Assembly: GCF_023147505.1 (NCBI RefSeq)
Contig: NZ_JAHXPB010000004.1
Coordinates: 248,001-312,000, forward strand
DNA from: Brevundimonas sp. EYE_349
GTDB lineage: Bacteria > Pseudomonadota > Alphaproteobacteria > Caulobacterales > Caulobacteraceae
Direction of reading: 5' to 3'
Length of the DNA: 64,000 nt
The notes beneath the pieces were generated by a model. That model was not told the DNA's origin. It made no database searches and saw only the letters and a list, made by a program, of their open reading frames with translations. Positions 28,114-58,505 of the stretch are shown piece after piece; within the stretch, counting starts at the first letter, position 1; each line of letters opens with the position of its first letter. Made by a program: the position numbers and the translations under genes.

Positions 28114-29211
28114 TTAGGCAATCCTGACTTCGGGGGCGGCCTGCGGCAGGTCGAACAAATCCATCTGCGGGCGGGCGTCGGCGGGCACACGGAACTGCGT
28201 CTCGTCCAGCAGACGGTGAGGCGTATCCAGACCATAGCGTTTGACCGCCGCCTTGAAGCGCGCGCCGATCAGTTCGGCGACCGGGCCCGTGCCCTTCATC
28301 CGCTGAGACCAGTCGGCGTCATAATCCTTTCCGCCCCGCGTCTGCCGGATCAGCGACATGACCCGCGCGGCCCGATCCGGGCGGGCGTCGGCCAGCCATT
28401 CGCGGAACAGATCCTTGATCTCGAGCGGGAGGCGCAGCGTCACATACATGGCGCGCGTCGCGCCCGCCTTGGCGGCAGCTTCGAGAATCGATTCCAATTC
28501 GTGGTCGTTCAGGCCGGGAATGACCGGAGCGAACCCCACGCCGACCGGACAGCCCGCCTCGGCCAATCTGGAAATGGCCTCCAGCCGTTTGGCGGGGGTG
28601 GAGGCGCGCGGCTCCATCGCGCGGGCCAGTCCGCGATCCAGGGTGGTGATGGAGACGAAGGCCGAGGCCAGGCCCGCCTTGCCCATCGGTCCCAGGATGT
28701 CGGCGTCGCGCCCGATCAGCACCGACTTGGTGATGATGCTGAACGGATGGTTGAACCGCTGCATCACCTCCAGGATCGAACGGGTCGATCCCAGTTCACG
28801 CTCGATCGGCTGATAGGGGTCTGTGTTGCCGCCTATGTGGATTCGCTTGCATCGGTATCGGGGTGCGAGGAAGGCCTGTTCCAGCAGACGTGCGGCCTGG
28901 GGCTTGAAGAAGATGCGGCTCTCGAAATCCAGGCCCGGGGATAGGCCCATCCAGGCATGGGACGGACGGGCGTAACAGTAGATGCAGCCATGTTCGCAAC
29001 CTTTGTACGGGTTGATGGAGCGGTCGAATCCGATGTCCGGGCTGTCGTTCCGGGCGATGATCGTGCGAGCGTGTTCCGGCGTGAGGGTGGTGCGCAGGGG
29101 CGCGGCCTCGGCGTCGTCGCGCGTCCAGCCGTCGTCGAACGACAGGTGCTGCTCAGGTTCGTAGCGGCCGGTGGCATTCGAACGCGCGCCTCTTCCCTTG
29201 GCGGTTTCCAT
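28114..29211 (-). CDS. Radical SAM protein, spore-photoproduct-lyase-like (PA0069 family)
   Basis: The 365-residue protein has the radical SAM cysteine motif GCEHGCIYCYAR (C-x3-C-x2-C), preceded by SINPYKG and followed by HIGGNTDPYQPIE, as in the SplB-related PA0069 group. SplB repairs UV-induced thymine dimers by radical chemistry; for this subgroup no reaction is proven to my knowledge. A perfect SOS-type box lies 25 bases upstream of ATG 29211, so a DNA-damage role is plausible. Confidence 0.9.
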   Translation of the reverse strand: METAKGRGARSNATGRYEPEQHLSFDDGWTRDDAEAAPLRTTLTPEHARTIIARNDSPDIGFDRSINPYKGCEHGCIYCYARPSHAWMGLSPGLDFESRIFFKPQAARLLEQAFLAPRYRCKRIHIGGNTDPYQPIERELGSTRSILEVMQRFNHPFSIITKSVLIGRDADILGPMGKAGLASAFVSITTLDRGLARAMEPRASTPAKRLEAISRLAEAGCPVGVGFAPVIPGLNDHELESILEAAAKAGATRAMYVTLRLPLEIKDLFREWLADARPDRAARVMSLIRQTRGGKDYDADWSQRMKGTGPVAELIGARFKAAVKRYGLDTPHRLLDETQFRVPADARPQMDLFDLPQAAPEVRIA

Positions 29212-29235
29212 GGGAAGGATGATGCTTCATCAATC

Positions 29236-29250
29236 GGAACAAAGCAAGAA
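29236..29250 (-). promoter_or_regulatory. LexA (SOS) box upstream of radical SAM gene
   Basis: The minus strand reads GTTC-ttgcttt-GTTC, an exact match to the alphaproteobacterial LexA direct-repeat consensus GTTC-N7-GTTC. It ends 25 bases before the ATG at 29211, a normal operator distance. Confidence 0.7.
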
Positions 29251-29276
29251 CATTTGTCCCTGCTCGTTCGTATGGA

Positions 29277-30758
29277 TCAGTCGGGGCCGATGACCATGCA
29301 GGTCACGCGCCGTTCGGCCAGGGCCTCGCAGGCGCCCTTGGCGGCCGTCTCCGTCAGGCCGGTGAAGCGCGAACGATACCAGTCGCCGGCGGTCTGGACG
29401 TTGCGCTCGGCGCTGGCGAACTGGGCGCGGAAGCGACGATTCAGCTCAGTCAGCCAGTCGTTGGCGACTTTCTCGTCGCGAAAGGCGCCGACCTGAACGG
29501 CCCAGCGTCCGGCGGGCGCGCGGGCGGCCGTGCGCGCCGATTCCCGTGCAGGCGCCGGGGGCGTGGCGCGACGCGGCGTGGTCGAAGGGGCGATGGTCGC
29601 GCTCGCCGGCGCGCCGTTCAAGGAGGCGGTGACGTTATGCGGCGCGCGCGCATTCGTCGCGGCGGCCTGACCGGCGGCCTGGACGGTCGCCGCCGCGCGC
29701 TGGCTGGCCGCGCGTTCGGACGGCGCCGGCGTTACGCGGGTCGGCGGAACGGCCGGCGCTGGGGCGGCCGTATAGGCGACGGCGGTGGAGCCTGGGGCCT
29801 CGCCATCCTCGTCGTCGCGGATCGAGGCGTAAGCGATGGGCGCGTCGCCGGTCGCGGACTCCCCGCCCACGCCGAAGCCGCGCTGCTCGAAGAATGTCTG
29901 GGCGACCTGGATCCGTTCGCCCTGCGCCCGCCGGCGCTCGACCTCGAATCCGGTGTCCATCAGTTCGGCGACATGGGCGTTGCGGCTGGCCGTCGAACGA
30001 CCGCCCAGGACGATGGTGATGAGGCGACGCCCGTCGCGCACCGCCGAGGCCGCCAGATTGTAGCCCGAGGCGTTGGTGTAGCCGGTCTTCATCCCGTCAT
30101 AGCCGCGTCCCGTCGGCAGCAGGCCGTTGGTGTTGCGATAGTTGCGGCCGTTATAGGCCCAGTCGTGCAGACCGAAGTAGCTGTAATACTGAGGGAAGTC
30201 GCGCATGATGGCCCGCGCCAGGATGGCTTGGTCACGCGCCGAGGTCAGCTGGCGCGCATCGGGCAGGCCGTTGGCGGTGACATAGCGGGTCTGGGTCATG
30301 CCCAGCTGTTCCGCCTTCATCGTCATCATATTGGTGAAGCGCGCCTCGGACCCGCCGATATGCTCCCCGATGGCCAAGGCCATGTCGTTGGCCGATCGGA
30401 CGGCGGTGGCGCGCATGGCGTTGTCCAGGGTGATGGTCTGACCCGCCGCCAGACCCAGTTTCGATGGCGGCTGGGATGCAGCGCGCGGCGAGATGGTCAA
30501 TACGTCGTTCAGGTTCGCCTTGCCCTGCGACAGCGCTTCGAACGTCAGATACAGGGTCATCATCTTGGTCAGGGACGCCGGGTAGCGACGGCTGTCGGCA
30601 TGACGCGCGAACAGCACCTCTCCGGTCGCCGCATCGATCACGATGGCGGCATAGCGACTGCTTTCCTGAGACTGGGCCACGATCGGGCGGACATTGACGC
30701 CCAGCACCAGCGAGGCGGCCAGGAGGGCGAAAAGGCCGCGGCGGAGGAAGGCGATCAT
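29277..30758 (-). CDS. D-alanyl-D-alanine carboxypeptidase with SPOR domain
   Basis: This low-molecular-mass penicillin-binding protein (DacA/PBP5-like) trims the terminal D-Ala of peptidoglycan stem peptides in the periplasm. The 493-residue product has a signal peptide, SxxK in PASLTKMM near residue 57, SxN in RSANDMA, and KTG in GMKTGYTNASG near residue 224. A Pro/Ala-rich linker leads to a C-terminal SPOR domain (GRWAVQVGAFRDEKVANDW), which binds denuded septal glycan, suggesting action at the division site. ATG 30758 is chosen because the frame's upstream part lacks a signal peptide. Confidence 0.94.
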   Translation of the reverse strand: MIAFLRRGLFALLAASLVLGVNVRPIVAQSQESSRYAAIVIDAATGEVLFARHADSRRYPASLTKMMTLYLTFEALSQGKANLNDVLTISPRAASQPPSKLGLAAGQTITLDNAMRATAVRSANDMALAIGEHIGGSEARFTNMMTMKAEQLGMTQTRYVTANGLPDARQLTSARDQAILARAIMRDFPQYYSYFGLHDWAYNGRNYRNTNGLLPTGRGYDGMKTGYTNASGYNLAASAVRDGRRLITIVLGGRSTASRNAHVAELMDTGFEVERRRAQGERIQVAQTFFEQRGFGVGGESATGDAPIAYASIRDDEDGEAPGSTAVAYTAAPAPAVPPTRVTPAPSERAASQRAAATVQAAGQAAATNARAPHNVTASLNGAPASATIAPSTTPRRATPPAPARESARTAARAPAGRWAVQVGAFRDEKVANDWLTELNRRFRAQFASAERNVQTAGDWYRSRFTGLTETAAKGACEALAERRVTCMVIGPD

Positions 30759-31063
30759 GGGTGATACAACCCTTTGGTAATCAAGCCCTTGGCGAGCAGG
30801 GTGCGGCAGGCCCCCCGGCCGACGCGACGAAAGGGTTAGCATAGGAACCTGGGGTTTCATGGTGGTTAACCGCCCGTCAACGCGAATTTGAACCGTCTAT
30901 CGGGGTTATGCCTATCAGCTTATCGGCGATCACATTGTGCAGCGCACAATGCGGCCTTGCATTCCTTTCGCACTTGCAGCATATTGTGGTTCTGCGAGGG
31001 TTCGCCTCGCGTCAGATTTTCCGCACCGCCGCCCCCGGGCGGGCAAACACCGGAGAGACGATC
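30759..31063. promoter_or_regulatory. Intergenic region before phasin with palindrome
   Basis: This 305-base gap separates the divergent carboxypeptidase and phasin genes and holds no convincing gene. A perfect inverted repeat ATTGTGC-agc-GCACAAT lies at 30934-30950. Its TGC-N3-GCA core resembles the CTGC-N3/4-GCAG type of site bound by PhaR, the repressor of phasin genes. A GTTAACC word near 30865 may be half of a CtrA box. GGAGAG precedes the phasin start. Confidence 0.45.
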
Positions 31064-45665: not shown

Positions 45666-46460
45666 TCAGTCTCTGCGCCGCCAGTACGCGACATAGGTCC
45701 CCGCTTCCTGCTCGTCGGGCCGGTAGCCGAAGCGATGAGTGACCGATGTCAGGCGAATCTTTTCGTCCGACGGTCGCAGTGTCAGGAAGGCGGCCATCAG
45801 TCGGTCGCGGTCCGCGTTCGAAAGGTTCGGACGGGTTTCGCCCGACACCTCGCAGAGGGTAGACGCGCAGGTGACCTTTACGGACGTAATGTCTTCGTCG
45901 AAGGCGGATACATCGTGATAGCCCTGTGAAAGCGCCTGTTCGGCTCGTGGCGACCAGGCTGCGTCTCGAGGGCCGTTCGCCACCTCGGCCTCAAGGACTT
46001 CCGGATCAGGGCGCGTCTGGCGTTCCGGCGCGTTCTGGGCAGACAAGGTTGTCGGCGCCGGATTCGGCTCAGTGGGCGACTTCGCGGTCTCATAAGACAG
46101 CAGGCTGGCGGCGAGCAGGGCGGCGGTGATCATGATCGGTCTCCAACGTCGGGTGAGGAACGCGCGGCCCAGAGGCGGCGCGTCGGGACGCGGAGGCTTT
46201 GAGGCGTCTGTCGGGAGCGGCGCCAGATCGATTAAATCGTCACGATTTTCTTGGGCGACCAACAGGCGGGCGATTTCACGACTGGAGCCGATGCCGGTCT
46301 TGCGTCGTGCGGACCGGAAACGTTCGTTCACCGCCAGTTCGGACAGCCCCTTCAGGACGGCGATGGACTTGGCCGTGTGGCCCTGCCCAAGAAGGATCAG
46401 CAGTTCGCGCTCGGCTGCGTTCAGGCGAGCGAGTGCGGCGTCGAAAGGCTGATCCTTCAT
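45666..46460 (-). CDS. Membrane-anchored LuxR-type HTH protein
   Basis: The 264-residue product has an N-terminal GerE/LuxR-like HTH (LNAAERELLILLGQGHTAKSIAVLKGLSELAVNERFRSARRKTGI, residues 12-58), a linker, one membrane helix (PIMITAALLAASLLSYETA, near residue 110), and a C-terminal domain probably in the periplasm. That domain has two Cys (VTCASTLCEVSGE) and a short beta-like fold. There is no receiver or autoinducer domain. The layout suggests transmembrane signalling like ToxR/CadC but with a different HTH. I set the start at ATG 46460 because the earlier ATG lies in the adjacent repeat. Confidence 0.78.
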   Translation of the reverse strand: MKDQPFDAALARLNAAERELLILLGQGHTAKSIAVLKGLSELAVNERFRSARRKTGIGSSREIARLLVAQENRDDLIDLAPLPTDASKPPRPDAPPLGRAFLTRRWRPIMITAALLAASLLSYETAKSPTEPNPAPTTLSAQNAPERQTRPDPEVLEAEVANGPRDAAWSPRAEQALSQGYHDVSAFDEDITSVKVTCASTLCEVSGETRPNLSNADRDRLMAAFLTLRPSDEKIRLTSVTHRFGYRPDEQEAGTYVAYWRRRD

Positions 46461-57875: not shown

Positions 57876-58505
57876 ATGCGCAATTCCGATGAACCGAAAT
57901 GGGCCGAGGGTCTGGCCAAGCCGCCGGCCTGGCGCAGCGACGGAACCGAGACGGTGTTCGACAGCCCGTGGATGGCCCTGACGCGGCACCCGGCGACGGC
58001 GCCGACGGGGATGAAGGCCGACTACGCCGTGGTGCGGTTCAAGAATGTGGGGACCGGCGTCCTGCCCGTGCATGACGACGGGACCGTGACCCTGGTGGGC
58101 CAGCAGCGGTTCGCCCTGGCCAACTATAGCTGGGAAATGCCCGAGGGCGGAGCGCCGCTTGACGAAGACCCGTTCGACGGCGTGCGGCGCGAACTGGCCG
58201 AGGAGGCAGGGCTGCGCGCCGAACACTGGGCGCCGGCGCTGAAGGTCGAGATGTCCAACTCCATCACCGATGAGATCGGCATGACCTGGATCGCCTGGGG
58301 CCTGTCGCCCGCCCCGACGGCGCCCGATCCGACCGAAGTGATCGCCGTGGTTCGCGTGCCGTTCCAGGATCTGCTGGACGAGATCGGGCGGGGGACGGTG
58401 CGCGACGGGCTGACGGTGGCGACGGCCTACAGGGCCTACCATATGGCGATGGTCGGCGAACTGCCCCAGGCGCTGGCGCAGGCCATGCTGAGGCGGGTAG
58501 GATGA
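57876..58505 (+). CDS. Nudix hydrolase, ADP-ribose pyrophosphatase-like
   Basis: The 209-residue product has the complete Nudix box EGGAPLDEDPFDGVRRELAEEAGL, preceded by a beta region GVLPVHDDGTVTLVGQQRFALANYSWEMPEGG as in the ADPRase/NudF group. Its stop overlaps an ATG of the cysE frame (ATGA at 58502), so the two genes are probably one transcript. Confidence 0.88.
   Translation: MRNSDEPKWAEGLAKPPAWRSDGTETVFDSPWMALTRHPATAPTGMKADYAVVRFKNVGTGVLPVHDDGTVTLVGQQRFALANYSWEMPEGGAPLDEDPFDGVRRELAEEAGLRAEHWAPALKVEMSNSITDEIGMTWIAWGLSPAPTAPDPTEVIAVVRVPFQDLLDEIGRGTVRDGLTVATAYRAYHMAMVGELPQALAQAMLRRVG

Follow-up and report, generated by a model that had tools for sequence, protein, structure and literature searches.

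Does the short direct repeat in front of an uncharacterised radical SAM gene of Brevundimonas sp. EYE_349 place this gene under the control of LexA, and what would the enzyme then contribute to the DNA-damage response? The question goes back to a sequence-only reading of the window, i.e. the whole stretch of 64,000 nucleotides analyzed here, in which a GTTC-N7-GTTC repeat had been noted 25 bases before the start of the gene and taken as the LexA box of alphaproteobacteria. The repeat was confirmed on the minus strand. It is separated by 25 bases (29212-29236) from the ATG of the radical SAM gene, whose first base is 29211, and is held by the 65-base gap (29212-29276) between the preceding carboxypeptidase gene and the radical SAM start. 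The features of the locus are as follows:

29237-29251, minus strand: LexA (SOS) box GTTCTTGCTTTGTTC, a GTTC-N7-GTTC direct repeat (from sequence and conservation)
29242-29247, minus strand: putative -35 element TTGCTT within the box spacer (proposed from spacer conservation)
29219-29224, minus strand: putative -10 element CATCAT, 17 bases past the -35 element (weak signal)
28114-29211, minus strand: PA0069 family radical SAM gene, 365 residues (from reading frame and family profile)
29277-30860, minus strand: upstream neighbour, D-alanyl-D-alanine carboxypeptidase with SPOR domain (Pfam PF00768 and PF05036)

The D-alanyl-D-alanine carboxypeptidase gene is outside the SOS unit, and an alpha/beta hydrolase gene comes after the radical SAM gene in the window.

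The box and its conservation

Judged alone, a single match to the box is weak evidence and not significant. GTTC-N7-GTTC was found four times in the 64-kb window versus 1.76 matches expected, a number which was reached by 11 of 100 shuffles, and genome-wide 148 matches were counted versus 49 for the reversed pattern. The other matches in the window, located on the plus strand at 30989-31003, 46326-46340 and 58350-58364, have GC-richer spacers and look like chance occurrences. The genome encodes lexA (187.1 bits, cut-off 110.95) as well as recA (569.3 bits), and exact boxes are present upstream of its own recA, lexA and uvrA genes.

The box was judged by its conservation across relatives, with controls, which is what lifts it above a chance match. 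The PA0069 family is present in 57 of 61 genus genomes; matches exceed the family cut-off in 143 of the 289 genomes of the class and in 111 of the 299 of the phylum. In the genus, 51 loci were examined (50 relatives and the window; six genomes in which the match was partial or lay at an edge were left out) and the exact box was found upstream in all 51. Outside the genus, the class set comprised loci from 130 of the 140 genomes over the family cut-off (30 and 100), and 111 of these 130 loci carry the exact box in either orientation within 250 bases upstream. The reversed pattern occurs in 3/130 of these regions, and the box itself in 1/130 when a comparable stretch within the gene is inspected. 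The assignment as an alphaproteobacterial LexA box, against which a lack of conservation in relatives would have spoken, is thus supported. Similar counts were obtained for the alphaproteobacterial loci from the phylum search (27/28 with box after removal of one duplicate; reversed pattern 3/29 before removal) and for the named loci (67/80, these being the best-scoring 80 of 591, with species that may overlap the other sets). With four named Brevundimonas loci added, the genus count is 54 of 55. The exception, L252, stems from a Brevundimonas metagenome-assembled genome: the radical SAM match (about 985-2309) is split near the cluster motif and about 270 bases longer than in the relatives, as if by insertion or misassembly, and the box lies further up.

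A weight matrix derived from these boxes, circular for its 109 training loci, gave 123 of the 130 class upstream regions a higher score than any of 390 gene-interior windows. Of the 21 loci in which the forward strand has no exact box, 14 also pass (2 with an exact box in the opposite orientation). Seven upstream regions score under the best gene-interior window, and one of them, L128, offers only 30 upstream bases. Loss of LexA as the cause of missing boxes was rejected: of the genomes whose locus shows no exact box within 200 bases, 22/22 encode lexA.

For comparison, known SOS genes and gyrA were inspected within about 260 bases, a range that misses boxes further upstream and possibly undercounts recA and uvrA. 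The box was found at 11/30 recA, 20/25 lexA and 0/28 gyrA genes; for uvrA it was present in one orientation in 6/29 and in the other in 2/29 cases. A lexA match is shown by 33 of the 41 control genomes, and the fair comparison is that of genomes shared with the radical SAM gene. There, the radical SAM box is present in 15/16 genomes versus 7/16 for recA, in 16/18 versus 8/18 for uvrA and in 15/17 versus 16/17 for lexA and 0/17 for gyrA. In the genomes compared, a nearby LexA box at the radical SAM gene is as regular as at lexA itself and commoner than at recA or uvrA.

In the other classes of the phylum, probably gammaproteobacteria including the former betaproteobacteria, all 39 loci over the family cut-off were analyzed. 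The alphaproteobacterial box was found in 0/39 of them. CTGT-N8-ACAG, the LexA box of E. coli, is located upstream in 28/39 loci (control pattern 0/39). L213, one of the 11 loci without an exact CTGT box, has the site TTAGTAATAATACTA, which agrees with the Xanthomonas box, TTAG-N6-TACTA. PA0069 itself is reportedly part of the LexA regulon of Pseudomonas aeruginosa. LexA-type control is kept while the type of box changes, which is hard to explain without a function. The box thus recurs at this gene in the majority of the relatives examined, and on this ground the uncharacterised radical SAM enzyme is very probably part of the DNA-damage response, as far as this can be read from genome sequences.

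A second motif was observed in part of the genus. In 9 of 55 loci GAAC is positioned 8 bases ahead of the box (GAACAAAT in 8 of these), so that a palindromic GAAC-N4-GTTC, the form of the Gram-positive LexA box, is fused to the direct repeat GTTC-N7-GTTC. The two joined motifs may form an extended operator. At the corresponding position ahead of the box (29252-29259, minus strand) the window reads GGACAAAT.

The enzyme, its fold and its gene neighbourhood

The protein matches the PA0069 family profile NF033668 with 499 bits (cut-off 360) over model positions 1-348 of 348, so the family named in the sequence-only reading was correct. The Rv2578c family (NF038135) is related in sequence, yet the protein remains far below its cut-off (188.6 bits over 47-291, cut-off 430), and Pfam gave Radical_SAM only. 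The cluster motif CEHGCIYC is located at residues 72-79 (Cys 72, 76 and 79), and CxxxCxxC is present in all 329 family loci.

An AlphaFold2 model was built from 35 sequences (mean pLDDT 77.9; cluster loop 68-96 below 50) and compared with solved structures. Foldseek placed spore photoproduct lyase (4fhc) first with E 3.7e-7, a TM-score of 0.45 and an rmsd of 8.2, followed by NifB with E 7.8e-7. VIA-align also gave the lyase (4k9r) first, with Z 15.7 over 245 residues and an rmsd of 3.6, followed by NifB (Z 13.9), lipoyl synthase (13.1), TYW1 (11.9) and viperin (11.5). The sequence kinship is weak: a profile comparison with the lyase aligned 62 columns at a probability of 19.8, and the lyase was absent from the results of two sequence searches of solved structures, one run with the protein alone and one with its profile, so that only the fold search yielded it.

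Among solved structures, the predicted fold is thereby closest to the lyase; the catalytic cysteine of the lyase is a different matter. In the 4fhc chain Cys140, the hydrogen donor of spore photoproduct lyase, is embedded in FEAACTSD, where the PA0069 family has TDPYQP. This motif was found in 327 of 329 loci and was used, rather than a full alignment, to set the register of the cysteine; the residue three positions before its Asp is T, G, A, S, I, V or M and never Cys in the 327 loci. Furthermore, 55 of the 329 loci encode only the three cluster cysteines. From these sequences, the PA0069 family seems to have no counterpart of the catalytic cysteine, and the enzyme seems to use a lyase-like barrel without the known hydrogen-transfer route of the lyase. 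Of the kinship to SplB that had been proposed, the predicted fold therefore stands; the chemistry of SplB cannot be transferred from it, because no counterpart of the hydrogen-donor cysteine was found.

The sequence-only reading had further argued that LexA control would favour a function in DNA repair, and this is supported by the conserved box together with the fold. An enzyme which is LexA-controlled but modifies RNA, a nucleotide or a protein in the damage response, instead of repairing DNA, is rather unlikely, albeit the most serious alternative. It would fit the lyase cysteine without counterpart and the RNA-, protein- and cofactor-modifying radical SAM enzymes that come close behind in the structure list; on the other hand, the lyase ranks first in both structure comparisons, and neighbours from DNA metabolism are frequent in other alphaproteobacteria, though this may just be conserved gene order.

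These neighbours were analyzed for 73 loci (72 named loci and the window). In 27 of them rnhB (RNase HII, PF01351) comes next on the same strand, as in L259, L262, L290, L295, L301, L305, L313, L316 and L328; by their titles the 27 loci belong mainly to Hyphomicrobiales and unplaced alphaproteobacterial bins. The box is located ahead of the radical SAM gene in 25/27 cases and between both genes in none, and the gap between the genes amounts to 60 bases or less in 13/27 (uncorrected gene calls). A CcrM-like N6-adenine DNA methyltransferase with RAMA domain, a MutY-like glycosylase and a uracil-DNA glycosylase also recur nearby. It is possible that the radical SAM gene and rnhB form an SOS-induced RNase HII unit in such genomes; the window does not have this gene order.

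Mobile elements were searched as well. Phage matches amounted to 9 records, all below 60% identity; one of them covers at least 80% of the query, with an identity of 26.7%. These distant matches include records of the Acidianus two-tailed virus and contigs of phages from human faeces. For plasmids 73 records were found, and the 12 matches listed are large alphaproteobacterial replicons.

Promoter geometry and proposed mechanism

In the spacer of the box, 5 of 7 bases are invariant across the 51 genus loci, with rare exceptions (GTTCTTG[C/A/T]TTTGTTC), and the consensus of 53 class loci with a picked start 36-42 bases from the box reads T-GTTCTTGNTTTGTTC-T. To judge from this consensus, TTGNTT within the box can take the role of a -35 element; 17 bases further on there is a loose TA---T hexamer, and after about 7 more bases the start codon. 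The -10 signal is weak, since at least four of six positions of TATAAT were matched in 15-19% of loci at offsets 26-27 and in at most 10% elsewhere. The orientation of the box is strongly biased in the class loci (106 one way, 2 opposite), as expected if an embedded -35 element fixes it, and recA and lexA boxes mostly have the opposite orientation (2 versus 9 and 3 versus 18, respectively). On the coding strand these recA and lexA boxes (L329-L383) mostly read GAAC-N7-GAAC (9/11 and 18/21).

The distance between box and start codon is similarly constrained. At 37-41 bases past the start of the box, an in-frame start codon is present in 53 of the 54 boxed loci of the genus and in 126 of the 198 other alphaproteobacterial loci with a forward box (198 of 228 non-genus loci have one), compared to 7-18 of 198 loci for each of ten other 5-base bins. 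In the 126 non-genus loci this codon is ATG in 122 and GTG in 4 cases. In the remaining 72 boxed loci a start codon is absent from this distance, and for several Rhizobiaceae the picked start is 149-180 bases from the box. By a crude rule, Shine-Dalgarno (SD)-like sequences precede 1/52 genus and 8/75 other picked starts at 37-41 bases, and 23/124 starts at other distances. No start codon was found at 37-41 bases from the boxes of recA (0/30), lexA (0/25) or uvrA (0/29). In the window's own genome a box and an ATG at equal spacing occur elsewhere in 15 matches (reversed pattern 1), and the TTGCTTT spacer is found, among these box and ATG matches, only at the window's site.

Because of the fixed spacing, the preference for ATG and the few SD-like sites, the geometry suggests that the mRNA of the radical SAM gene is leaderless or nearly so and gated by LexA. 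Alternatively, LexA control could be real and the mRNA could have an ordinary leader, the fixed distance from box to ATG resulting, for example, from a compact promoter with a start slightly upstream. We consider this unlikely, somewhat more so than a function outside DNA repair: the weak -10 match speaks in its favour, whereas the predominance of ATG at 37-41 bases, the scarcity of SD-like sequences and the absence of this spacing from the recA, lexA and uvrA boxes oppose it. According to PMC4117421, leaderless mRNAs are common in Caulobacter, where 375 have been mapped, and their translation is about as efficient as that of other mRNAs. The main texts of start-site papers on Sinorhizobium and Bradyrhizobium do not name the gene, and the promoter layout, with a -35-like element in the box and a start codon at 37-41 bases, was not found in the literature searched.

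Taken together, a LexA-repressed promoter, a leaderless or nearly leaderless mRNA and an enzyme with a lyase-like barrel acting on a damage product form a model that we regard as likely as a whole; LexA binding, induction, the promoter elements, the leaderless start and the substrate are the parts that we infer. In the undamaged cell, LexA on GTTC-N7-GTTC would cover the -35 element inside the box. After RecA has triggered the self-cleavage of LexA, RNA polymerase would transcribe the gene, the transcript would begin at or a few bases from the ATG and the enzyme would be made. It would most likely act on a DNA lesion or another nucleic-acid damage product, by means of a 5'-deoxyadenosyl radical within a lyase-like barrel and without the cysteine that serves the lyase as hydrogen donor. 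The locus would then be a clear-cut example of a probably leaderless gene that is gated by LexA.

A wider reading is doubtful and put forward as speculation: PA0069 enzymes may belong to the core of the SOS response of proteobacteria and reverse, by light-independent radical chemistry and with a hydrogen donor different from the lyase cysteine, some lesion that is not the spore photoproduct, such as a cross-link or a dimer that blocks replication. The mRNA would be leaderless and gated by LexA, and in many Hyphomicrobiales the gene would form an SOS unit with rnhB.

Comparison with known systems

The closest solved structural relative, spore photoproduct lyase (4fhc, 4k9r and mutants), shares with the PA0069 family the CxxxCxxC cluster and a Tyr before the last cluster Cys. 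It differs by a structural-alignment identity of only 12-15%, by Cys140, for which no counterpart was found in the family, and by the TDPYQP motif that the family has in its place. It is improbable that the enzyme is a true spore photoproduct lyase, reversing 5-thyminyl-5,6-dihydrothymine in a non-sporulating bacterium. The cysteine was not found, neither at the motif-aligned residue nor, in the 55 loci with cluster cysteines only, elsewhere in the protein, and the spore photoproduct arises mainly in the dry DNA of spores. This assignment would agree with the predicted fold and with a LexA-prediction paper of 2012, in which splB was read in this way (PMC3323433). A chance box in front of a gene outside the SOS regulon is very improbable, for the many genome and window matches that might suggest it are outweighed by the controlled conservation in genus and class, on which this reading was rejected, and by the second type of LexA box that other classes carry.

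LexA control of such a gene is already in print. In their passages on splB, Sanchez-Alberola et al. (2012) predicted its control by LexA in alpha- and betaproteobacteria, inferred a function from the divergent boxes and did not see this control in the gammaproteobacteria studied (PMC3323433). The splB gene described there resembles the PA0069 gene in being SplB-like, in its LexA box and in LexA motifs that differ by class, a likeness by description. The CTGT box in our other-class loci, which are probably gammaproteobacterial, contrasts with the reported gammaproteobacterial absence; in GTDB, beta lineages are placed within that class. The 2012 work dealt with species with several chromosomes, in contrast to the single family followed here across the class with controls and promoter layout.

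Related cases are found further afield. In Streptomyces venezuelae the radical SAM gene vnz_31145 is listed as 19.97-fold up with mitomycin C and as LexA-bound (PMC9380542). According to PMC7739468, a radical SAM gene belongs to the SOS regulon both in Gram-positive bacteria, as part of its core, and in Balneolaeota; for the Bacteroidetes regulon, SplB (COG1533) is named in PMC8565304. According to a passage in PMC3765255, gene neighbourhood ties SplB-like radical SAM genes to SOS factors. As described in these sources, vnz_31145 and the PA0069 gene are alike as radical SAM genes linked to LexA and differ in phylum and box, and the Gram-positive, Balneolaeota and Bacteroidetes genes are alike in LexA-type control and differ in box type. 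Closer to the window, the main text of a 2025 paper on the Caulobacter regulon, its 47-gene table not included, contains neither 'radical SAM' nor 'photolyase'; PA0069 is named in the literature, in one paper for its use in chromosome tagging.

Against this background, and with respect to the literature searched, the class-wide counts for one family with controls, the geometry that suggests a LexA-gated leaderless gene and the evidence for a missing lyase cysteine are new. They point to an uncharacterised, probable SOS enzyme that seems to lack the cysteine used in catalysis by its nearest relative among solved structures, and thereby to a part of the response open to direct tests in ordinary laboratory strains.
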